Positions 3,376-43,639 of a DNA stretch of 44,191 nucleotides are shown here, piece after piece. The notes under the pieces are model-generated. The model did not search any database. It saw nothing but the letters and a program-made list of their open reading frames with translations, and was not told the origin of the DNA. The translations under genes and the position numbers were made by a program. The DNA is from Candidatus Mediterraneibacter surreyensis. Its GTDB lineage: Bacteria; Bacillota; Clostridia; Lachnospirales; Lachnospiraceae. Where the stretch lies: positions 1-44,191 of the forward strand of contig DWYB01000053.1 of the NCBI GenBank assembly GCA_019118885.1, read 5' to 3'. Every line of letters starts with the position of its first letter. The stretch's first letter is position 1.

Positions 3376-4788
3376 CTATTTCATCGTTTTGAGCCTCGTA
3401 AAGTAGTCTTTCGATTCTTTTACAACGACTCCATTCAATGCCAGCAGCGCCACAAGGTTCGGGAACGCCATCAGCGCATTAAATACATCCGCAATATTCC
3501 ACACTGCAGCTACTGTCATGTAAGGCCCGATAAAGACTGCAGCAATATACAGCCATCTGTACCCCTTTACCACGGATTTGTTTCTGTTAAAGAGATATTC
3601 CACACAGCGTTCTCCATAATAGTTCCATCCGAGTATCGTCGTAAATGCGAAGAACACAAGACAGATCATCAGCGAGAACGTTGCCACTTCCGGCGGAAAC
3701 GGAAGCCCTTTCTGGAATGCGTCCATCGTAATCTCCACGCCTTCCAGATCCGGATTCATCCATGATCCTGCGATCACAACAGAAATACCTGTCATCGTAC
3801 AGATTACGATCGTGTCGATAAAAGTTCCTGTCATCGATACAAGTCCCTGACGCGCCGGTTCTTTCGTCACCGCTGCCGCTGCCGCGATCGGAGCGCTTCC
3901 AAGTCCTGATTCATTGGAAAAGATACCCCTCGCGATACCCTGCTGCATTGCAACCACCATGCTTCCCATAGCGCCGCCTGCAAGCGCACTGCCTGTAAAT
4001 GCGGATTTCACAATAGATACAACCGCCGCCGGAACCGCTGTAATATTTGTAAAGATAATAATCAGTCCCAGCACGACATACAGAACCGCCATGAATGGTA
4101 CAACGATCTCAGATACTTTCGCGATTCTTTTGATTCCTCCGATCACGACCAGTCCGACGCAGAGAGTCAGAATGATACATGTGATCACCGTGCTCCATGA
4201 ATATGTTCTTCCAAACAGCGAAACCACATTGTTCGCATTCGGATCAAAGAAGTTCGTCACTGCGGATGAAATACTGTTCACCTGAGTAAATGTACCGATT
4301 CCGAAAAGACCTACACATGCGCCGAAAAACGCAAAGATCTTAGCCAGCCATTTCCAATTCTTTCCCATACCATTCTCAATATAATAGAACGGTCCTCCGA
4401 GAATGTGTCCGTCCTTGTCCACAGTACGGTACTTAATCGCCAGCAGTCCTTCTGCATACTTTGTGGCCATTCCGAAAAACGCAGCCACGATCATCCAGAA
4501 CAGCGCTCCCGGTCCTCCGGCTGCAAGCGCAGTCGCCACACCGGCGATATTTCCGGTTCCGATCGTCGCGGACAGTGCGGTACACAGCGCCCCGAAACTG
4601 GTCACTTCCCCGTGTCCTTCTTCTTCATTTTTGATCATGAATTTGAATGCTTTGCCGAGATGCCTTACCTGTAAAAGCCCCAGCCTGACTGTGAGTAGAA
4701 ATCCTGTAAACAGGATAAGAAGAATCAGCGGCAGCCCCCACACAGCGCCCTGAACTGCAGTAATGATTTTGTTGATCTGCTCCAACAT
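3376..4788 (-). CDS. Alanine/glycine:cation symporter, AgcS family
   Basis: A membrane transporter of the alanine or glycine:sodium symporter family (AgcS/AlsT), taking up small neutral amino acids with Na+. The 470 residues and roughly eleven hydrophobic segments are normal for the family. Family-typical stretches include GAVWGLPLILL near residue 14, ALSATIGTGNIAGVA near 72-86 and GIFSNESGLGSAPIAAA near 288-304. The ATG at 4788 has a GGAGG site at 4802-4798, directly after the 3' end of the glycine riboswitch. This points to glycine as substrate or signal. Alanine is equally possible as a transported substrate. Confidence 0.93.
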   Translation of the reverse strand: MLEQINKIITAVQGAVWGLPLILLILFTGFLLTVRLGLLQVRHLGKAFKFMIKNEEEGHGEVTSFGALCTALSATIGTGNIAGVATALAAGGPGALFWMIVAAFFGMATKYAEGLLAIKYRTVDKDGHILGGPFYYIENGMGKNWKWLAKIFAFFGACVGLFGIGTFTQVNSISSAVTNFFDPNANNVVSLFGRTYSWSTVITCIILTLCVGLVVIGGIKRIAKVSEIVVPFMAVLYVVLGLIIIFTNITAVPAAVVSIVKSAFTGSALAGGAMGSMVVAMQQGIARGIFSNESGLGSAPIAAAAAVTKEPARQGLVSMTGTFIDTIVICTMTGISVVIAGSWMNPDLEGVEITMDAFQKGLPFPPEVATFSLMICLVFFAFTTILGWNYYGERCVEYLFNRNKSVVKGYRWLYIAAVFIGPYMTVAAVWNIADVFNALMAFPNLVALLALNGVVVKESKDYFTRLKTMK

Positions 4789-4800
4789 TCCTTTATACCT

Positions 4801-4950
4801 CCATCCTTTTGCCTGAGAGACTCACGTTTTCGCTCCGTTTTCCCGCATGAACAGGAATACCAAAGCATCAACGCTTACACCTTCGGCGCCCTTCTACAGA
4901 TATACCGCCTTGCCTTTCCGGTATGGTACTGTAAAAGAGACTCTCCTGAG
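4801..4950 (-). promoter_or_regulatory. Glycine riboswitch, single aptamer
   Basis: On the minus strand the leader contains GGAGAGTCTC (4946-4937), then CGCCGAAGGTGTAAGC in the middle, and at the 3' end CTCTCAGGCAAAAGGAT. These are the conserved blocks of the glycine riboswitch. Only one aptamer is seen, with no tandem copy. The 3' end runs straight into the symporter ribosome site at 4802-4798 and no terminator intervenes, so control is probably at translation initiation. The sign of the response cannot be told from sequence. Confidence 0.9.
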
Positions 4951-4984
4951 TACTTTTTCACTGTGTATTGACACAGCAAAATAA

Positions 4985-5013
4985 AGGATAGCACTAGTGG
5001 AATATAAATGCAA
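4985..5013 (-). promoter_or_regulatory. Promoter of the riboswitch-symporter transcript
   Basis: TTGCAT (5013-5008) and TATCCT (4990-4985) on the minus strand are separated by 17 bases. This places the start about 30 bases upstream of the aptamer. The left end of the long palindrome at 5016 abuts this promoter. Confidence 0.5.
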
Positions 5014-5015
5014 GT

Positions 5016-5392
5016 GTAAATTTGTGTTTGCCAGAGAGACATTCCTTGATAAAACATCCAAAAACCAATCGGATACAATGGAATGACATATATATTCGGA
5101 TCAGTGGGGATTATGATACTTCCGGCTCCGGTTACAGGACGTAAGACAAAGTAACAAGCCTGCAATATGGCTAAATACGATCAAGCAAATGAAGCAACTC
5201 GTTTCACTCAGACAACTTCATTTGCTTGATCAACGCCATATCACAGGCTTTAACTTTGTCTAACGCCCTTACACAGTCACCGTCAGCATCATAATCCCCA
5301 CTGATCCGAAAGGTACGTCATATCGGCTGTATCCGTTTGATTTTCTGTGTTCATCCAGGCGGAAGTGTCTCTCCGACAATCGCGGAATTTAC
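5016..5392. repeat. Long imperfect palindrome A1 (family A)
   Basis: About 377 bp that fold back on themselves around position 5205. Perfect inner arms are 5179-5194 and 5216-5231 (16 bp, 21-nt loop). A second perfect 21-bp pair is 5097-5117 with 5288-5308. Looser pairing (GGAGAGAC, CGGATACA, and GTAAATT at the termini) extends to both ends. A related copy, A2, is at 34946-35207 in the same orientation, with the same outer modules but a shorter tip. A 96-residue open frame at 4875-5165 crosses the riboswitch and this arm and is not credible as a gene. Function unknown: mobile palindromic repeat, structured RNA or processing/termination signal. Confidence 0.85.
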
Positions 5393-5457
5393 AGACAAGC
5401 AATCAAAAGGATAGACTTTATTGACGAAGTTCCGCTTTCTTCTGGTTTGTACAAGTT
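5391..5457. repeat. Module B1, smaller hairpin following A1
   Basis: An imperfect hairpin directly after A1 that aligns with 35205-35270 after A2. Shared pieces include GAATTTACAGA, GACTTTAT/AACTTTAT and GTTCC. The internal pairing is weaker than in the A2 copy. Because it follows palindrome A in both places, A and B seem to form one composite unit. Confidence 0.55.
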
Positions 5458-5756
5458 TTTGTTGAAGAATGGCTCTGCGGCTGAAAAAAGTGTACTGACC
5501 GGATGAGACAGCAGAAAAAGAAGATACTGCATAAGCTATGCATCGACATGGAGTGTTCCGAATACACCTCGTTCTCCATGTTAGCGATATTAAAATGCGA
5601 GTTCCAATGGACGAGCATTTTGATATTGCGTTACATGGATTCGAGGGGATGAGGTAAAGCGGGTCGGCATAGCGTTGCGGTACCTTCTTTTTCTGCGTCC
5701 GCTATTTGATTAGTATATCTTTTCTACTATAGCGGAATCTGTTCAACAAATACAAA
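5453..5756. repeat. Long imperfect palindrome C1, ends next to the thrS stop
   Basis: About 300 bp folding around position 5605. Inner arms are 5576-5598 and 5615-5638 with a 16-nt loop. Further out GCAGAAAAAGAAG (5511-5523) pairs with a matching stretch near 5682-5694, and TTTTTGTTGAA (5456-5466) pairs with TTCAACAAATA (5742-5752). The left arm carries a private side hairpin, ACATGGAG/CTCCATGT at 5546-5553 and 5574-5581. The right end lies 2 bases from the thrS stop codon (5759-5761), so this is also where thrS transcription would end. A 66-residue open frame at 5418-5618 is only the shadow of the arm. Confidence 0.8.
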
Positions 5757-5758
5757 TT

Positions 5759-7660
5759 TTATTTCTTCAGATCAATCTCTTCTTTGATCTTCTCTACAAA
5801 CTCTCCAAGTCCGCACTGTCCTTCATCGCCATTTTTTCTGCTTCTGACGGACACTTTTTCTTCTTCCTCTTCTTTTGCACCGACTACGAGCATGTACGGG
5901 ATCTTCTTCATCTGGGCCTCGCGGATCTTGTATCCGATCTTTTCAGCTCGGGTATCGATCTCGGCGCGGATGCCTGCTGCCTGCAGTTCGTTCAGGACTT
6001 TCGTGCCGTACTCCATATGTTTGTCGGAAATCGGCAGGACTTTCACCTGTACCGGTGCAAGCCATGTCGGGAACGCGCCTGCGAAGTGCTCGATCAGGAT
6101 ACCGATGAAACGCTCGATAGAACCGAACACAACACGATGGATCATGATCGGTCTGTGCTTCTCCCCGTCTGCTCCTGTATATTCCAGATCGAACCGCAGC
6201 GGGAGCTGGAAATCGAGCTGGATCGTACCGCACTGCCATGTTCTTCCAATGGAATCTTCCAGATGGAAGTCGATCTTCGGTCCGTAAAACGCGCCGTCCC
6301 CTTCATTTACGACATAGGAAAGACCGATATCATCGAGGGCTGCTCTGAGGGCGTCTGTCGCCATCTCCCAGTCTTCATCGCTCCCCATGCTGTCCTCCGG
6401 GCGTGTAGAAAGCTCTACATGATATTTGAATCCGAAGAGGCTGTATACTTCGTCGATCAGTTTTACAACGCCTTTGATCTCGTCCTTGATCTGCTCCGGA
6501 GTCATGAAGATATGCGCATCGTCCTGTGTAAAGCAGCGCACGCGCATCAGTCCGTGGAGCTGTCCGGATTTCTCATGGCGGTGCACCAGACCGAGCTCAC
6601 CCATACGGATCGGAAGATCACGATAGGAACGCGGTTCTGACTCATATACAAGGATACCGCCCGGACAGTTCATCGGCTTGATGGCAAAATCCACATCATC
6701 GATCACTGTTGTATACATATTTTCTTTATAGTGATCCCAGTGTCCGGAAGTTTCCCACAGATGACGGCTCAGCATGATCGGCGTGCTGATCTCCACGTAT
6801 CCTGCCTTGCGGTGGATTTCTCTCCAGTAGTCGAGCAGTGTGTTCTTAAGCACCATGCCGTTCGGCAGGAAGAACGGAAATCCGGGTCCCTCCTCACGCA
6901 TCATAAACAGCCCCAGCTCTTTTCCGAGTTTTCTGTGATCACGCTTCTTCGCCTCTTCGAGCATAGTCAGATACTCTTCCAGTTCCGCTTTCTTCGGGAA
7001 CGCAGTACCATAAATTCTCTGAAGCATCTTATTGTGCTCGTCGCCTCTCCAGTATGCGCCTGCAAGGCTTGTCAGCTTGAAAGCTTTTACCGGTTTGGTA
7101 GTCATAAGGTGAGGACCTGCACAGAGATCTGTAAATTCCCCCTGGGAATAGAAACTGATCGTCTCATCCTCAGGCAGGTCTTCGATCAACTCTACTTTGT
7201 ACGGCTCGTCTTTCTCTTTAAAGTACTCGATCGCCTCATTTCTCGGCATCGTATACTGTTTGATCTCAAGGTTCTCCTTGACGATCTTCTTCATCTCCGC
7301 CTCGATCTTCTCCAGATCTTCTGACGTAAACGGAGTCTCTCTGTCTACATCATAATAGAATCCGTCTGCAATTGACGGTCCGATGGCAAGCTTTGTCTCA
7401 GGATACAGGCGCTTGATCGCCTGCGCCATAATATGGGAAGCTGTATGGCGGAACGCTCCCTTTCCTTTTTCATCGTTAAATGTCAGGATACTAAGCTCGC
7501 AGTCATGGTCGATCACCGTCCTCAGATCAACGATTTCTCCGTCAACTTCACCGGATGTAGCAACTCTGGCAAGTCCTTCACTGATATCAGCAGCGATCTC
7601 ATATACACTCTTTGGTTCCTGATACTCTTTAAATGAGCCGTCTTTTAATGTGATCTTCAT
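5759..7660 (-). CDS. thrS: Threonyl-tRNA synthetase
   Basis: A class II aminoacyl-tRNA synthetase charging tRNA-Thr. The 633 residues hold an N-terminal TGS domain (about 1-60), the editing/SAD domain (HTASHIMAQA near residue 72), the catalytic core and the C-terminal anticodon-binding domain (about 535-633). MNCPGG near 333 is part of the zinc/active-site region. Motif 2 is RVRCFTQDDAHIF and motif 3 contains GSIERFIGILIEHF. The length matches bacterial ThrRS. The ATG at 7660 follows an AAGGAAGAGG site. It stands alone behind a Thr T-box, and the long palindrome C1 starts just past its stop codon. Confidence 0.98.
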   Translation of the reverse strand: MKITLKDGSFKEYQEPKSVYEIAADISEGLARVATSGEVDGEIVDLRTVIDHDCELSILTFNDEKGKGAFRHTASHIMAQAIKRLYPETKLAIGPSIADGFYYDVDRETPFTSEDLEKIEAEMKKIVKENLEIKQYTMPRNEAIEYFKEKDEPYKVELIEDLPEDETISFYSQGEFTDLCAGPHLMTTKPVKAFKLTSLAGAYWRGDEHNKMLQRIYGTAFPKKAELEEYLTMLEEAKKRDHRKLGKELGLFMMREEGPGFPFFLPNGMVLKNTLLDYWREIHRKAGYVEISTPIMLSRHLWETSGHWDHYKENMYTTVIDDVDFAIKPMNCPGGILVYESEPRSYRDLPIRMGELGLVHRHEKSGQLHGLMRVRCFTQDDAHIFMTPEQIKDEIKGVVKLIDEVYSLFGFKYHVELSTRPEDSMGSDEDWEMATDALRAALDDIGLSYVVNEGDGAFYGPKIDFHLEDSIGRTWQCGTIQLDFQLPLRFDLEYTGADGEKHRPIMIHRVVFGSIERFIGILIEHFAGAFPTWLAPVQVKVLPISDKHMEYGTKVLNELQAAGIRAEIDTRAEKIGYKIREAQMKKIPYMLVVGAKEEEEEKVSVRSRKNGDEGQCGLGEFVEKIKEEIDLKK

Positions 7661-7772: not shown

Positions 7773-8022
7773 ACTTTTCTGAAGTCTATGCAGTCACACG
7801 GAAACACTCCACACAGGGACGGGAAATACTCCCGCGGTTCCACCCTGCTTGTTTTCCATGGAAAACCATCTTAATTCATATGATGATAACGGAATCACCG
7901 TGCCTGATTAGGGCCGCTCAGAGGTGGTCTTCAGTCATGCCGTACAACAGGATCGTTTCAGCCTGGGATCCCTCTCTGTCGATGCACCGACAGCTTACTG
8001 TCCTCTTCAACGCTTTCTCTAC
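7747..8022 (-). promoter_or_regulatory. Threonine T-box leader of thrS
   Basis: On the minus strand the leader has the GAAGAGGACAGTA 5' block near 8014-8002, a Stem I, and the specifier ACC (Thr) at 7928-7926 within TGAAGACCACC. The T-box core AGGGTGGAACCGCGG lies at 7846-7832. Its TGGA bulge expects discriminator base U. A 12-bp terminator hairpin follows at 7772-7747, then TTTTGTTTTC. This senses uncharged tRNA-Thr and allows read-through into thrS. Specifier, core and gene all agree. Confidence 0.95.
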
Positions 8023-33659: not shown

Positions 33660-34949
33660 ATGGAATTATGCAGTATCACAGGACTGAAAGGAAAAATATC
33701 CGTCCCCGGCGATAAATCCATCTCACACCGGTGTGTGATGTTCGGATCCATAGCCAGCGGAATGACGGAGATACACAACTTCCTGGAAGGGGCGGACTGT
33801 CTCGCAACGATCCGTTGCTTCCGCACCCTCGGCATCGACATCGAAGAAAAGGACAGCACTGTCCTCGTACACGGCAAAGGCCTCCACGGCCTGTCAGCCC
33901 CCTCGAATATCCTTGACGTGGGAAACAGCGGCACAACCACCCGTCTCTTGTCGGGCATCCTTGCAGGTCAGCCCTTTGAATCAAAATTATCCGGCGACGA
34001 ATCACTCAACTCCCGCCCGATGAAAAGGATCATCGATCCACTGACCCAGATGGGGGCTAATATCTCAAGTATTCTGCGCAACGGATGCGCTCCGCTGTAC
34101 ATCTCACCCGGAAAACTTCACGGGATCCACTATGACTCTCCGGTCGCTTCCGCTCAGGTCAAATCCTGCATCCTGCTGGCCGGACTGTATGCAGACGGCG
34201 AGACTTCCGTCACCGAGCCGTCTCTCTCAAGGAATCATACAGAGCTTATGCTCAGGGAATTTGGCGCGGATATCCGTTCCACACATGAGCTGGGGAGCAC
34301 AAAGGCGACCGCTTCCATCTCTCCCTGCGAAGAACTGTACGGTCAGAAGATTACCGTGCCTGGCGACATCTCTTCCGCCGCTTATTTCATCGCAGCAGGA
34401 CTGATTGTACCGGACTCTGAAATTCTCATTGAAAATGTAGGTATTAACCCGACCCGGTCCGGTATCCTGAAAGTATGCGAGGACATGGGCGGAGATATCA
34501 CTCTTCTCAACGAGCGCATCGAAGGCGGAGAAAAGATTGCCGATATCCTCGTGCGTACAAGTAAGCTACACGGTATCACCATACAGGGCGACATCATCCC
34601 CACGCTCATCGACGAAATCCCGGTCATCGCAGTCATGGCCGCTGTAGCGGAAGGAACAACCGCCATAAAAGACGCCGCCGAACTGAAAGTCAAAGAGACC
34701 GACCGTATCGAGACAGTCTGCGACAATCTGAAATCAATGGGCTGCAACGTAACGCCGACACCGGACGGCATGATCATCACCGGCGGGAAACTTACAGGCG
34801 CATCCATCCATACCCTGCTTGACCACCGCATCGCAATGGCATTCAGCATCGCGGCGCTGGTGGCAGAAGGGAATACGAAGATACTGGACAGCAAATGCGT
34901 GGATGTGTCGTATCCGACGTTCTATGATACATTCGAGGAGTTGTTGTAA
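33660..34949 (+). CDS. aroA: 3-phosphoshikimate 1-carboxyvinyltransferase (EPSP synthase)
   Basis: Catalyses the sixth shikimate step, joining shikimate-3-phosphate and phosphoenolpyruvate. The 429 residues are typical. Active-site motifs include PGDKSISHR (about 16-24), LDVGNSGTTTRLLSG (about 83-97), LNSRPMKRI (about 117) and the C-terminal DHRIAMAFSIAA (about 386). It is co-transcribed with tyrA for aromatic amino-acid synthesis. Its TAA stop (34947-34949) falls inside the terminal GTAAATT of the long palindrome A2, so the element appears to supply the stop codon. Residues up to the end look complete. Confidence 0.97.
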   Translation: MELCSITGLKGKISVPGDKSISHRCVMFGSIASGMTEIHNFLEGADCLATIRCFRTLGIDIEEKDSTVLVHGKGLHGLSAPSNILDVGNSGTTTRLLSGILAGQPFESKLSGDESLNSRPMKRIIDPLTQMGANISSILRNGCAPLYISPGKLHGIHYDSPVASAQVKSCILLAGLYADGETSVTEPSLSRNHTELMLREFGADIRSTHELGSTKATASISPCEELYGQKITVPGDISSAAYFIAAGLIVPDSEILIENVGINPTRSGILKVCEDMGGDITLLNERIEGGEKIADILVRTSKLHGITIQGDIIPTLIDEIPVIAVMAAVAEGTTAIKDAAELKVKETDRIETVCDNLKSMGCNVTPTPDGMIITGGKLTGASIHTLLDHRIAMAFSIAALVAEGNTKILDSKCVDVSYPTFYDTFEELL

Positions 34950-35207
34950 ATTCGTGTTTGTCGGAGAGACATCCTATGATAAATCGACCGAAAATCAATC
35001 GGATACAGTGAAATAACTCACGTATTCAGATTAGGCGGGATTGTAATGCTTCCGGCTCCGGTTACAAAAGAAAGATAAACTTTCTCCACAGTCACCGTCC
35101 GCATTACAATCCCGCCTAATCCGAAAGGTTCATCATATAGGCTGTATCCGTTTAATTTCCTGCGTTCATCCAATCGGAAGTATCTCCCTGGCAATAGCAG
35201 AATTTAC
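34946..35207. repeat. Long imperfect palindrome A2 (family A)
   Basis: About 262 bp folding around 35076. A perfect 21-bp pair lies at 35029-35049 and 35101-35121. Inside it CGGTTAC faces GTCACCG and a GAAAG-ATAAA-CTTTC tip closes the hairpin. Outer pairing (CGGATACA, GGAGAGAC-type pieces and GTAAATT/AATTTAC ends) matches copy A1 at 5016-5392. The 21-bp core differs from that of A1 at several positions, and each change is matched on the opposite arm. The left end contains the aroA stop codon. No transposase is encoded in it. Confidence 0.87.
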
Positions 35208-35270
35208 AGAAAACCAGTGGAAAGGGGAAACTTTATCAACTTTGTTCCCTATTTCAACCGGTTTTGTGTC
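35205..35270. repeat. Module B2, hairpin between A2 and the VanZ-like stop
   Basis: An imperfect hairpin: ACAGAAAACCAGTGGAAAGG on the left pairs with CAACCGGTTTTGTGT on the right around an ACTTTATCAACTTTG tip. It aligns with B1 (5391-5457) and its right end reaches the stop codon of the converging VanZ-like gene (35271-35269). A2 plus B2 thus fill the whole gap between two converging genes and could act as a terminator for both. Confidence 0.6.
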
Positions 35271-35775
35271 AGGTTAAATAGTTTACCCCTATCAGAAGTG
35301 CCATGAATGCTGTTATTGCGATCGTGCATATGATTGCTGCTATGTTAAGGATTTTTACTGTTTTTTCTTTCAGAAGTTTAGTAATCAGAAATACCAGAAA
35401 GATGCCTATTGCTCCGCCCAGTGTATTCATGATGAGATCTGTGATATCGCTGGCGCCTATCGCAAAGATAAACTGGATTACTTCGTACAGCAGGCTGAGT
35501 CCGAAGATCGGAGCAATCTTTTTTATTGCAGGAACCTTTGGCATCAGCATACCCAGATACAGACCGACTGGAATAAACACAATAAAGTTATTCATAATCT
35601 CGTCCATATCCATTTTTCCGTTTATCACAACAGAACCGGCAAAAGGAATCAAATTGACAGATCTGTAATGTCCTAAAGCCGAAAACGAAAACTGAGTCTT
35701 AAGTAAAATAATCCATGTTAATATAGTCAAATAAATAATAAGCAGGACGAGCGTAATTTTTTGCTCTTTCTTCAT
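35269..35775 (-). CDS. VanZ-like family membrane protein
   Basis: A 168-residue protein with about five hydrophobic segments and the VanZ-like pattern: an N-terminal helix with TWIILLKTQF, then RSVNLIPFAGS near 39, NNFIVFIPVGLYLGML near 63 and SDITDLIMNTLGGAIGIFL near 113. VanZ itself gives low teicoplanin resistance, but most family members have no known role, and no van genes are nearby. A GGAGGGAAAAG site precedes the ATG. It is a single gene flanked on both sides by long palindromes. Confidence 0.88.
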   Translation of the reverse strand: MKKEQKITLVLLIIYLTILTWIILLKTQFSFSALGHYRSVNLIPFAGSVVINGKMDMDEIMNNFIVFIPVGLYLGMLMPKVPAIKKIAPIFGLSLLYEVIQFIFAIGASDITDLIMNTLGGAIGIFLVFLITKLLKEKTVKILNIAAIICTIAITAFMALLIGVNYLT

Positions 35776-35924
35776 ATCTTTTCCCTCCTGTTCCTTTTTC
35801 TGTATACAGCATACGAGGGAATTTTTCAGATTGAGCTATAGAAATCTTTAATATTTTTTGAATTTTAAAACAAACTTTCCCGGCTACATCCCTATTGCAA
35901 CCAGTTTTTTTGACTTTCATATTT

Positions 35925-36275
35925 ATCGGAATGAGTGCCGTATCCGATAAAGCAGAAAACGGGCGGAGATGGGACGCAGGAAGACTCAAAAAGAGATGAA
36001 TGGTATGTGAGGAAGGCGACTTCGAAGTAATTCGAGAGAAAAAGTTAAGGCTCCGGAAGATGATATTAAGTCTGTATATGGAGTGTTTGAGGCGAAGCCG
36101 AGTTCTCCATTTGCAGGCTTTGTATTTAATCATCTTCCGGAACCTTTAATTTTTTCCGAATTACGTAGCGGAGCCTGAAGCACATGCCGGTCATCTCGAA
36201 AAAGTATTTGCGTGTCTCATCTCCGTCCGTTTTCGAACTTTATATAATTGCCATTCAGTCCGGCACATACGGAAT
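35925..36275. repeat. Long imperfect palindrome C2, ends next to the ribulokinase stop
   Basis: About 330-350 bp folding around 36095. Paired blocks are ATGGAG (36078-36083) with CTCCAT (36105-36110), TCCGGAAGATGAT (36052-36064) with 36129-36141, and the outer GAAAACGGGCGGAGAT (35955-35970) with 36219-36234 (one G-T type mismatch). GTGCCG (35935-35940) also faces CGGCAC (36261-36266). Its tip, ATGGAGTGTT...GTTCTCCAT, is shared with the side hairpin of C1 (5547-5580), so C1 and C2 are probably one family. The right end is within about 10 bases of the ribulokinase stop (36278-36276). Confidence 0.8.
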
Positions 36276-37880
36276 TTAGATCCCGGCGTCCACCGCTGCT
36301 CTTTCGATCGTCAGCCCTTTTGTGTACTTCTCCATAAATTTCTCATAACCTTCCACATCTTCCGGCACCGGATCCATTCCCGAGCCTTTTGTATCATGGA
36401 ATACTTTATTATTTAAGTAGTCTGTCAGGCTTTCGCCGTCTTCTTTTCGGACAAGATAATCTGCCAGCAGAGCGATCCCCCACGCGCCGCCTTCGCCGGC
36501 GGTCTCCATGACGTATACAGGGGTGTCGATAGCTCCGGCAAGGATCCGCTGTCCGACGCCTTTTGTCTTGAACAGGCCGCCATGGCCCATCATGCGGTCA
36601 AGTTTTACATTCTCTTTTTTAAGCAGGATATCCATTCCTGTCTTCAGAGCACCGAGAGATGTGTAGAGATTCACTCTCATAAAGTTTGCAAGGTTGAATT
36701 TGCTCTCAGGGGAGCGCACAAAGAGAGGCCGGCCCTCGTCAAATCCGGTGATATGCTCGCCTGAGAAATAGTTATATGCGAGCAGTCCGCCGCAGTCGGC
36801 GTCGCCTTCAAGGGCTTTATTGTAAAGGGTCCCGAACAGCTTGTTCATATCCACGTCGATGCCGAAGCTCTCGGCAAATTCTTTGAACAGTCCTACCCAT
36901 GCATTCAGGTCTGATGTACAGTTATTGCAGTGGACCATTGCCACCAGATCTCCGGCAGGTGTTGTCACAAGATCAATCTCTTCATACGGTTTTGTCAGAT
37001 CTTTCTCAAGGACCGCCATGGCGAATACGCTTGTTCCGGCGGATACATTACCTGTTCTTACGGCAACACTGTTTGTGGCTGTCATACCGGTTCCCGCATC
37101 GCCCTCCGGCGGACACATAGGAATGCCTGCTGACAGATTACCGGAGGGATCAAGGAGTTTCGCTCCCTCTTCCGTCATGCTGCCCGCATCTTCACCTGCC
37201 AGAAGCACTTTCGGAAGGAGCTCGCGGATCTTCCACGGGAATCCCTTGTCTGCCACCAGATCATCGAACTGATCCAGCATCCTGCTGTCGTAATCTTTCG
37301 CCTCTATATTGATCGGGAACATACCGGCTGCATCACCGCTTCCGATCACTTTCTGTCCGGTCAGCCTCCAGTGAATATATCCTGCAAGTGTTGTAAAGAA
37401 ACGCACTTTTCCCACATGATCCTCGCCGTTTAAAACCGCCTGATACAGATGGGCAATACTCCAGCGCTGAGGAATATGGTATGCGAAAAGCTCGGATAAT
37501 TTTGCTGACGCCTGGCCCGTGATCGTATTTCTCCATGTACGGAACGGTACGAGCAGTTCGTCATTCTCATCAAATGCCAGATAACCGTGCATCATAGCGC
37601 TGACACCTGCTGCCGCCAGGTTCGTGACCGTGACTCCGTATTCTTCCTGAACATTTTTCACAAGATCCTGATAGCTGCCCTGCAGCCCTTTCCATATCTC
37701 ATCGATATCATATGTCCAGATGTGATTCACATACTGGTTCTCCCAGTCGTAACTGCCGGACGCCACAGGCGACTTATCCACATCGATAAGTACTGACTTG
37801 ATCCTGGTCGATCCCAGCTCTATTCCAAGTATCGCCTGTCCGGCGCTTATCATTTCTCTGATTTCCTCTTTGCTTCGCAT
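36276..37880 (-). CDS. araB: FGGY-family carbohydrate kinase, probable L-ribulokinase
   Basis: An ATP-dependent sugar kinase that in this setting would phosphorylate L-ribulose between AraA and AraD. The 534 residues contain FGGY_N (about 15-290, starting [17 protein letters not shown]) and FGGY_C (about 300-495, with [20 protein letters not shown] near 465). It belongs to the longer Clostridial type rather than the E. coli AraB subgroup, so xylulokinase is possible by sequence alone; the ara neighbours favour ribulokinase. An AGGAGG-like site precedes ATG 37880. It is last in the cluster and separated from araA by ddh. Confidence 0.82.
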
Positions 37881-41348: not shown

Positions 41349-42428
41349 CTAAATCTCATGGATCACCCGCACGGAGCTGCGTATCACAAGTTCCGGCTCA
41401 AATTCCTCTGTCTCCAGCTCTTCCTTCCTCAGAATCCGGCCAATGATCTTTTCTGCCGCAGTCTTTCCCAGACTTTCCACAGGGTTTTCCACAGAAGTTA
41501 ACGGCACAGAACAGAATTTTGCAAGCCCGGAATTGTCGATTCCTACAATGGACAGATCTTCCGGCACCCGCAGCCCGGACTTCTGAAAAATGCCGACCAG
41601 CTTATACGCCGTCTCATCGTTATAACAGACACAGGCCGTACACCCTTTCAGCCTCTTTAAAAACTTTGCGCTCTCCTCTTCCATGGATCTTAATTCCTCT
41701 GAATCGATCCATATGACCTGATCCCCGCGTATCCTGATATCCCGTTCCATCAGAGCATCTGTATAGCCCGCATATCTGAGATGCCCCTGTCCGTCATCCG
41801 CTTTAAATATGCCGCCTATCCGGATATGTCCGCACTCTGCGAGATGTTTCGCGGCAAGATATCCCGCCTTCTGGTCATCCATACTGACATGTGGAATATC
41901 CAGTTCCCTGTAATAGCTGTTTACAAACATGACCGGTATCCCGAGCCTTTCAAGTTCTCTATACAGCTCCAGGTTCGGATTGGGCAGGGCGCTCTTCACG
42001 GTCTCTGCAATGATCCCGTCCACCGACTGAGTGCGGATGAACTCCCGCAGCAGCATCCTCTCCTTTTCCACTGCATTGTCCGTCATGGAAATCTGCAGCG
42101 TACATCCCTCCCTGGAAAGCACAGACTCAATCCCCTTTATAATAGAAGGGAAGATATATGTATCTACATAAGTCAGCATGACGGCAATCCGGATCTCTTT
42201 TCCCGTATAACGCCGCGTATTCACTGTCACATAGGTTCCGCTGCCTCGTCGCCCCTCAACGATCCCGTTCTCCGTGAGTTCCTCCATGGCACGCCGGACG
42301 GTCTGCCGGCTGACACCGAACTGTTCCATCAATTCGTTTTCGGAAGGCAGCTTATCCCCCCGGCATAACATTCCATTTTCAATCTCCTGCCGGATCCATT
42401 CTACAATCCGCTCATATTTTTTCTGCAT
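41349..42428 (-). CDS. araR: AraR-type arabinose repressor (GntR/LacI hybrid)
   Basis: A 359-residue repressor with an N-terminal GntR winged helix (about 1-70, with [20 protein letters not shown] and [10 protein letters not shown]) joined to a LacI-type sugar-binding domain (about 75-355, with [20 protein letters not shown] near 291). This architecture defines AraR of Bacillus and relatives, which is released from DNA by L-arabinose. It is first in the arabinose cluster and shares its upstream region with candidate operators (42503-42596). The start is preceded by AAAGGGG. Confidence 0.93.
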
Positions 42429-42615: not shown

Positions 42616-42661
42616 AAAATCCCCTATAAACAGTGAATATTCACTGTTTATAGGGGATTTT
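42616..42661 (-). terminator. 46-bp perfect palindrome, terminator of rpsB-tsf
   Basis: Positions 42616-42661 read identically on both strands, centred between 42638 and 42639 (AATATT at the centre). The terminal AAAA/TTTT give a five-T tail on the minus strand, 28 bases after the tsf stop codon, so it acts as an intrinsic terminator. The full symmetry would let it work for either strand and also lets duplex DNA extrude a cruciform. Confidence 0.88.
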
Positions 42662-42688: not shown

Positions 42689-43612
42689 TTACGCGTTCAT
42701 CTGTTTTGCTACTTCCTCTGCAAAGTTCTCTTCTTTCTTCTCGATTCCTTCGCCTGTCTCATAACGAACAAACTTTGTAACTGTTACTTTTGCGTTGTTT
42801 TCTTTTGCTACTTTATCAACGTATTTTGCAACAGTCAGATCGCTGTCCTGTACATATACCTGATCAAGCAGGCAGATCTCTTTCATCTCTTTGTTGAGAC
42901 GTCCAATGATCATCTTCTCGATAATGTTGTCCGGTTTCTCCGGGTTCTCTTTCTTAGCCTGAGCAAGAAGAATCTCTTTCTCGTGATCCATGAACTCCTG
43001 AGATACTTCATTTCTGGATACATACTTCGGAGACATAGCTGCAACCTGCATAGCCACATTCTTCAGGCATGTCTTAATCTCATCGTTTACTACGTCTGTA
43101 TCAGCAACTACGAGAACACCGATACGTCCGCCGCCATGGATATAGGATACAACACATCCGTTCTCAGCTTCTACTCTCTCGAATCTTCTGATATTCAGAT
43201 TCTCTCCGATCACTGCGATCTTCTCTACAAGAGCATCTTTTACGGTCTTGGATGTATCTGCTGCCCAAGCCTCTGCCATGAAAGAATCCATGTCAGCCGG
43301 GTTGTTATCTGCAACCTGATTTACAACTGTCTCAACGAATCCCTGGAACTCATCGTTCTTTGCAACGAAATCCGTCTCAGAGTTAACCTCAACGATAGCT
43401 GCAACCTTGTCATCTCTTACGACAGTCTTAACAATACCCTCTGCTGCGATTCTGCCGGCTTTCTTCTCAGCCTTTGCCTGTCCGTTCTTTCTGAGGAACT
43501 CAACAGCTGCGTCCATATCGCCGTTTGTCTCTGTAAGGGCTTTCTTGCAGTCCATCATTCCTGCGCCTGTCATTTCTCTTAATTCTTTTACCATTCCTGC
43601 TGTGATTGCCAT
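42689..43612 (-). CDS. tsf: Translation elongation factor Ts
   Basis: Nucleotide exchange factor for EF-Tu. I chose ATG 43612, since TGGAGGA precedes it and the protein starts MAITAGMVKELREMTGAGMM like other EF-Ts; the frame to 43627 adds five residues. The 307 residues have the UBA-like N-terminal domain (about 1-52, with CKKALTETNGDMDAAVEFLR) and the core (EVNSETDFVAKNDEF near 80). It follows rpsB by 27 bases, the usual bacterial order. Confidence 0.97.
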   Translation of the reverse strand: MAITAGMVKELREMTGAGMMDCKKALTETNGDMDAAVEFLRKNGQAKAEKKAGRIAAEGIVKTVVRDDKVAAIVEVNSETDFVAKNDEFQGFVETVVNQVADNNPADMDSFMAEAWAADTSKTVKDALVEKIAVIGENLNIRRFERVEAENGCVVSYIHGGGRIGVLVVADTDVVNDEIKTCLKNVAMQVAAMSPKYVSRNEVSQEFMDHEKEILLAQAKKENPEKPDNIIEKMIIGRLNKEMKEICLLDQVYVQDSDLTVAKYVDKVAKENNAKVTVTKFVRYETGEGIEKKEENFAEEVAKQMNA

Positions 43613-43639
43613 GATAAATTCCTCCATTAAATCAAGATA

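Follow-up and report, generated by a model that had tools for sequence, protein, structure and literature searches.

Several classes of bacterial palindrome resemble the elements described below. The REP, BIME and REPIN sequences are extragenic palindromes of 20–40 bp that occur in inverted pairs and lie mostly between convergent or co-directional genes, with ends able to supply a stop codon and G-T pairs in the stems (PMC3733652). EFAR is named there as a MITE (PMC3733652). The bacterial MITEs Correia/NEMIS, ERIC, YPAL/RU-2 and RUP are likewise non-coding, dispersed sequences with inverted repeats and long hairpins that are often found near genes; they are about 100–170 bp long where a length is given, and several have target duplications and 5'-TA ends (PMC2229807). 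In addition, the stem-loops of Firmicutes, together with intrinsic terminators, are described as lying directly downstream of stop codons with a preference for convergent spacers, and they have stems of 30–50 nt, many of which are terminator-like (PMC1590033).

The window is a stretch of 44,191 nucleotides from Candidatus Mediterraneibacter surreyensis, and it contains two long palindromes, A1 and A2 (Table 1). Our preferred explanation, to which as a whole we assign a probability of roughly 0.55, is that both belong to a genus-restricted superfamily of palindromic elements, dispersed and without coding capacity, that occupy the 3' spacer next to stop codons and have kept their pairing, and that combine an inferred ability to spread with a putative role as an RNA 3' end. 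The first-pass annotation had described A1 and A2 as lying about 30 kb from each other and pointing the same way, with common outer modules and one long hairpin each, and this picture is borne out: the common outer modules are 80% identical, and the plus-strand RNA folds have an MFE of -162.4 (z -15.5) for A1 and -94.1 (z -9.2) for A2, with no shuffle as good in either case. The minus strand of A1 folds better than the plus strand (MFE -203, z -18.5). The cores also pair as had been claimed, perfectly over 23 bp in A1 and over 25 bp with one mismatch in A2, where a perfect 21-bp core remains, and the difference in tip length, given earlier as about 110 bp, measures 115 bp that are missing from the tip of A2. 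As A1 and A2 are dispersed repeats placed on stop codons, much of the difference between them may be due to exchange between dispersed copies and to tip loss.

Table 1. Features of the palindromic elements and their neighbours in the window, and the Y1-transposase ORF elsewhere in the same genome
Feature	Position	Strand	Remarks
A1, long hairpin H of the composite	5016..5392	+	end motif (G)TAAATTTGTGTTTG on the left, inner mirror GGAATTTAC on the right
Small middle hairpin	5393..5450	n/a	from right-flank alignment and fold
H2, second long hairpin of the composite	5497..5709	+	
Right end of the composite	5746..5758	-	AATTTGTATTTG in minus-strand reading; immediately follows the thrS stop (5759-5761)
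A2, tip-deleted single H hairpin	34946..35207	+	starts on the aroA stop codon (34947-34949)
Middle-type small hairpin adjoining A2	35208..35264	n/a	ends just before the stop of the VanZ-family ORF
VanZ-family small ORF	35269-35775	-	between A2 and the third element
Third, diverged member	35908..36275	-	far end approximate; directly after the FGGY-kinase stop
FGGY-kinase gene	36276-37880	-	Pfam domains
Y1-transposase ORF, own genome	L363 1099-1908	-	269 aa; PF01797

A1 is only the left half of a composite and not a whole element. The composite is 740 bp long (5019-5758) and consists of H, an inner mirror end, the middle hairpin, H2 and an outer end at thrS. The middle hairpin is kept in most aligned copies, and positions 5393-5760 used as a query have matches in 19 of the 41 genus genomes. 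The third member was matched by model S at 36274-36120 (E 2.5e-13) and contains an inverted repeat of its own (36039-36064/36129-36154). Gene identities were taken from domains, among them those of thrS, the stop codon of which adjoins the right end of the composite, and of aroA, the EPSP synthase gene. Among the aroA loci examined, the arrangement of aroA and the VanZ-family ORF recurs in genomes G002 and G026 and in no other.

The window also holds other structured sequences. Two T-box leaders (23-263 and 7812-8019) reach Rfam gathering scores, as does a glycine riboswitch on the minus strand at 4791-4958, which lies just to the left of A1 and upstream of a gene for a sodium:alanine symporter (3376-4788, minus strand). 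A perfect 46-bp palindrome with two 23-nt arms and no loop (42616-42661) is located between the minus-strand ORFs 41349-42428 and 42689-43627, and is possibly an ordinary terminator.

The basic unit of the superfamily is a single long hairpin of about 350–415 bp with terminal inverted ends, and two such hairpins, inverted and mirror-symmetric, make up composites of 719–954 bp (719 in the own genome). Complete elements fall mainly into classes of about 346–415 bp and about 740–954 bp, together with a few of 118–149 bp. Ten elements with two ends were examined, and in these the terminal inverted repeats AATCTG/AATTCG are present at both ends, with one end slightly offset in two of them (L419 and L430). 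The ten are 346–954 bp long, and the elements are short, non-coding and present in many copies. TA flanks both sides in some of them (L411 and L414) and is absent in others, and their flanks contain no consistent target duplication. In genome G062 the end pattern has 63 matches, compared to one for the reversed control. A further hairpin module, GGAGGTATGTATTG...CAATACATACCTCC, was seen inside the second half of composites or in its place (L111 1856-2840, L117, L112, L114 and L115), and a similar module occurs in L062 and in L248, in the latter close behind the thrS stop.

The first-pass annotation had named the existence of only two copies as a point that would count against its reading, and this is not what was found, since A1 matched 22 stretches at 16 places in its own genome, A1 and A2 among them. 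Among 61 relatives A1 was found in 16, all of which belong to the 37 of the same genus, and in none of the 24 others. With the superfamily model R2, a sequence model built from 17 diverged members, matches were obtained in 32 of 41 genus genomes, with 39 matches in the own genome and no fewer than 72 in each of four others of the genus. In a family-wide search of 200 genomes, the own genome included, strong R2 matches were confined to the own genome and two of the other 199 matched marginally (E 5.7e-4 and 8.4e-4). Both this search and that of the 41 genus genomes used the stricter filters that apply to searches over more than 40 genomes and by which weak matches are lost. A pattern for the conserved core found 76 stretches in named genomes, of which 57 are titled Mediterraneibacter, 12 uncultured Lachnoclostridium, 3 uncultured Ruminococcus and 1 uncultured Eubacteriales bacterium, the last 3 being unrelated. 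These three (L135, L148 and L203) match the family model over only 22–29 nt around the pattern and look like chance matches. In the more distant species of the genus, orthologous gene ends have diverged versions with the short blocks CGTCCGAAAAC, ACGTATTC and GGCTCCG in common. Genome G019 contains similar copies that are 97–98% identical over 392–448 nt (one genome per species was compared). Many draft contigs, including those of G029 and G013, begin or end inside elements, so that copy numbers in drafts are probably low and neighbouring sites have been lost.

Searches for a described relative gave little. As the first-pass annotation had stated, there is no credible Rfam match; at the gathering cut-offs and at E<=1 only miRNA hairpin models appeared, far below their cut-offs. 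Plasmids and phages searched in distant mode had no match, and neither had viral contigs searched with one pattern. In the titles and abstract openings of the open-access literature, no such family is described in this genus.

The position of the elements relative to genes is highly regular. The 135 loci examined (the window, L057-L130 and L388-L447) provided 142 outer ends for assessment and four more at contig edges, with genes defined as open frames of at least 300 nt and not by curated annotation. A stop codon within 60 nt is faced by 118 of the 142 ends, and in 112 of these 118 it lies within -8 to +4 nt of the start of the model, which for S falls on the base that follows the stop or close to it. 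Another 22 ends face a gene start within 500 nt, at distances of 4–450 nt, and two ends face neither, although a few of these 24 may face a stop beyond the 60 nt that were searched. In a narrower window 53 of 74 ends are at such a stop, as opposed to 5.5% of random positions; when inner ends are included, the values are 56 of 102 and 3.8%. The stop codons at the 53 ends are TAA (38), TGA (9) and TAG (6), a distribution that is biased toward TAA-flanked ends in so far as the end model E contains the stop codon common at the sites. Where genes converge, an element often takes up the entire space from one stop codon to the other.

At the ends of aroA, glmM and an S1-domain gene, the aligned reading frames of most genomes stop at the same place or close to it, with or without an element, and the same applies to thrS among the closer genomes, although its end varies in distant ones. 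The alignments therefore indicate that the stop codons at the element ends are native to the genes. M. catenae SW178 has the same stop-flush ends, which makes it unlikely that this position is only an artefact of metagenome assembly.

Other species carry an ordinary spacer at gene ends that are occupied elsewhere. One series comes from a convergent pair formed by an amidase gene and a gene that we take to be glmM, both with domains found by search. The element extends exactly from stop to stop in four genomes (359, 372, 372 and 741 nt), and these four occupants represent at least two subfamilies. In eight other genomes the spacer is 59–230 nt long and has no credible family match; six of these contain a terminator-like run of five or more T, and of the remaining two, that of G061 (134 nt) has no such run and that of G028 (230 nt) has a different large hairpin. 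In G023 the spacer is 615 nt long and contains a diverged member (E 4e-13 with the H model), the ends of which are not judgeable. Behind four genes, a T5 run within 100 nt was present at 1 of 27 sites with an element and at 31 of the 87 others (Fisher p 0.001), the latter being sites with no model match near the stop and possibly including diverged members; such a deficit is as expected if the terminator was lost. In a comparison of 15 pairs of elements at 11 shared gene ends, the other genome's best match was the partner itself in 4 pairs; in the remaining 11 the partner stood 2nd to 8th, so that many shared sites have been filled more than once, or refilled. The apparent replacement could also have come about by insertion with subsequent loss of the old spacer, or by insertion into an already tiny gap; G035, for example, has a gap of only 1 nt behind aroA.

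The covariation that had been proposed from A1 and A2 turned out to be real and large in the wider family. In an alignment of 38 of the 47 copies with a consensus fold of 98 pairs, 96.5% of cells in paired columns are paired, compared to 86.2% after shuffling, and 48 of the 98 pairs have changes on both sides, compared to 34.5. The covariation score is 0.366, as opposed to 0.174 for shuffled alignments and 0.07–0.10 for slid structures, and no shuffle reached the observed values.

Pairing of this kind can be kept by selection on a structure or by the DNA itself, and the first-pass annotation had held that self-correction of the palindrome would have to be ruled out. In its strongest form this alternative regards the elements as selfish fold-back MITEs, which stay palindromic only because the DNA corrects itself, by template switching or arm-to-arm conversion, and because copies recombine, and which have no role as RNA. 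It would account for the 50 of 136 double changes on the tree that are of the transversion type and hence unreachable through G-U, and for private changes that are nearly equally frequent in paired and unpaired columns (0.434 and 0.51 per column) and show little wobble preference (G-U to A-C 29:22 to 30:26, depending on the structure used). One of five pairs of similar copies, both from G036, likewise differs by 14 double and 8 single changes in paired columns, and the inner tips may have been exchanged between copies as blocks. The other four pairs, however, have 1, 1, 5 and 1 double changes and 3, 4, 7 and 10 single ones, so that correction is not immediate. Furthermore, on the better-folding strand, changes from Watson-Crick to G-U outnumber those to A-C by 89 to 47 (86 pairs, tree of 47 copies; p 0.0004), a modest and largely inherited preference that comes from one tree of copies that recombine; at unpaired columns, which are those outside the consensus fold and include partly pairing outer arms, the corresponding changes stand at 288:254 (Fisher p 0.012). 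A wobble excess that is seen at paired and not at unpaired columns favours selection on a single-stranded form. The strands point in the same direction: the minus strand folds better in 45 of 46 copies of H, the plus strand in 16 of 16 of H2, and for the type II halves, taken from the outer end, it is again the minus strand (8 of 8), although these counts come from copies that share ancestry. For each hairpin, the best predicted fold is thus obtained on the strand that runs outward from the element's centre. Self-correction by itself appears insufficient and the purely selfish reading is unlikely, but such correction may still contribute, and the earlier interpretation is supported in part.

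Two further explanations appear more doubtful still. The elements could be giant relatives of REPINs, with two opposed hairpins downstream of genes that are moved by a RAYT (REP-associated tyrosine transposase) acting on single-stranded hairpins. The composite does hold two inverted hairpins, a Y1 (PF01797) match is present in 36 of 41 genus genomes, and exactly one is present in 13 of the 41, the own genome included, as an open frame of 260–286 aa. We take the Y1 ORF of the own genome, which adjoins a class II aminoacyl-tRNA synthetase gene, to be RAYT-like. GTAG REPs are likewise reported to lie downstream of genes and often to supply the stop codon (PMC3733652). On the other hand, 30 Y1 loci with up to about 1.5 kb on each side contain no E, H, H2 or superfamily match, G035 (a 92% complete draft) has many copies and no Y1 match, and the units are about ten times longer than REPs of 20–40 bp, with ends that are neither GTAG nor CGTC. 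Membership in the REP/RAYT class was rejected, as neither its unit length nor its foot nor, in the 30 loci, a flanked RAYT was found, and we regard movement by a RAYT as improbable. A free-standing family of structured non-coding RNA genes with their own promoter seems slightly more improbable again: strong covariation and the better folding of one strand would fit such genes, but a scan of 4950-5800 found 2 promoter-like sites where 2.7 are expected, no Rfam family corresponds, and both the mirror symmetry of the composite and the fixed position on stop codons of unrelated genes speak against it.

Searches around the copies turned up no dedicated machinery. Pfam analysis of 20 proteins identified the Y1 ORF as the sole transposase and none among the 19 neighbours, cluster representatives and site genes; one protein had no family. 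Among 343 ORFs near copies (window and L057-L130), inspection of the 25 largest clusters by eye found no transposase and no recurrent cargo, only genes of housekeeping type and ORFs read inside the hairpins. In G062, the one genome scanned for an autonomous partner, no pair of ends 1–5 kb apart was present, within the limits that contig breaks set to such a scan. An intrinsic terminator was also considered for the A1 composite and rejected, as the scan of its region (4950-5800), which covers loops up to 8 only, found no site with a GC-rich hairpin and a T-run.

To conclude, we prefer the explanation in which the element would spread like a miniature non-autonomous transposon or an extragenic palindrome, and its hairpin would act in single-stranded form, most probably as the 3' end of an RNA in place of a lost terminator. 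Such a putative 3' end may block or process read-through between facing genes. A more far-reaching version, in which mobile palindromes exchange whole 3' spacers, either recognizing stop codons or being kept only there, and in which all that lies between the stops of convergent genes, the terminator included, gives way to a large hairpin that assumes the 3'-end role, is put forward tentatively and is possible rather than probable. If it is true, genomes in parts of the genus have each lost the native 3' spacer at up to more than 70 gene ends, and gene ends are exchangeable wholesale. The family would also offer a natural series of large covarying hairpins on which selection on RNA can be set against self-correction of DNA, and it would raise the question of what positions the elements so exactly at stop codons.

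Compared to the systems outlined at the beginning, the elements have the extragenic position, inverted pairing and G-T-containing stems of REP, BIME and REPIN sequences, but at about 350–950 bp they are far longer, they carry no GTAG/CGTC tag and have no RAYT gene found beside the repeats, and their ends are flush on stops with the old spacer gone at the compared sites (PMC3733652). They are non-coding and dispersed as the bacterial MITEs are, with inverted repeats and long hairpins often near genes, but are longer and multi-hairpin, lack a consistent duplication and are highly diverged within one genus (PMC2229807). With the stem-loops of Firmicutes they share the place directly behind the stop codon and the preference for convergent spacers, but they are repeats of about 350–950 bp and the A1 composite has no terminator-like site (PMC1590033). 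What is surprising is that the ends sit flush on stop codons and that the old spacer has gone in its entirety; in its behaviour the element resembles a MITE or an extragenic palindrome, and in its position a replacement 3' end.
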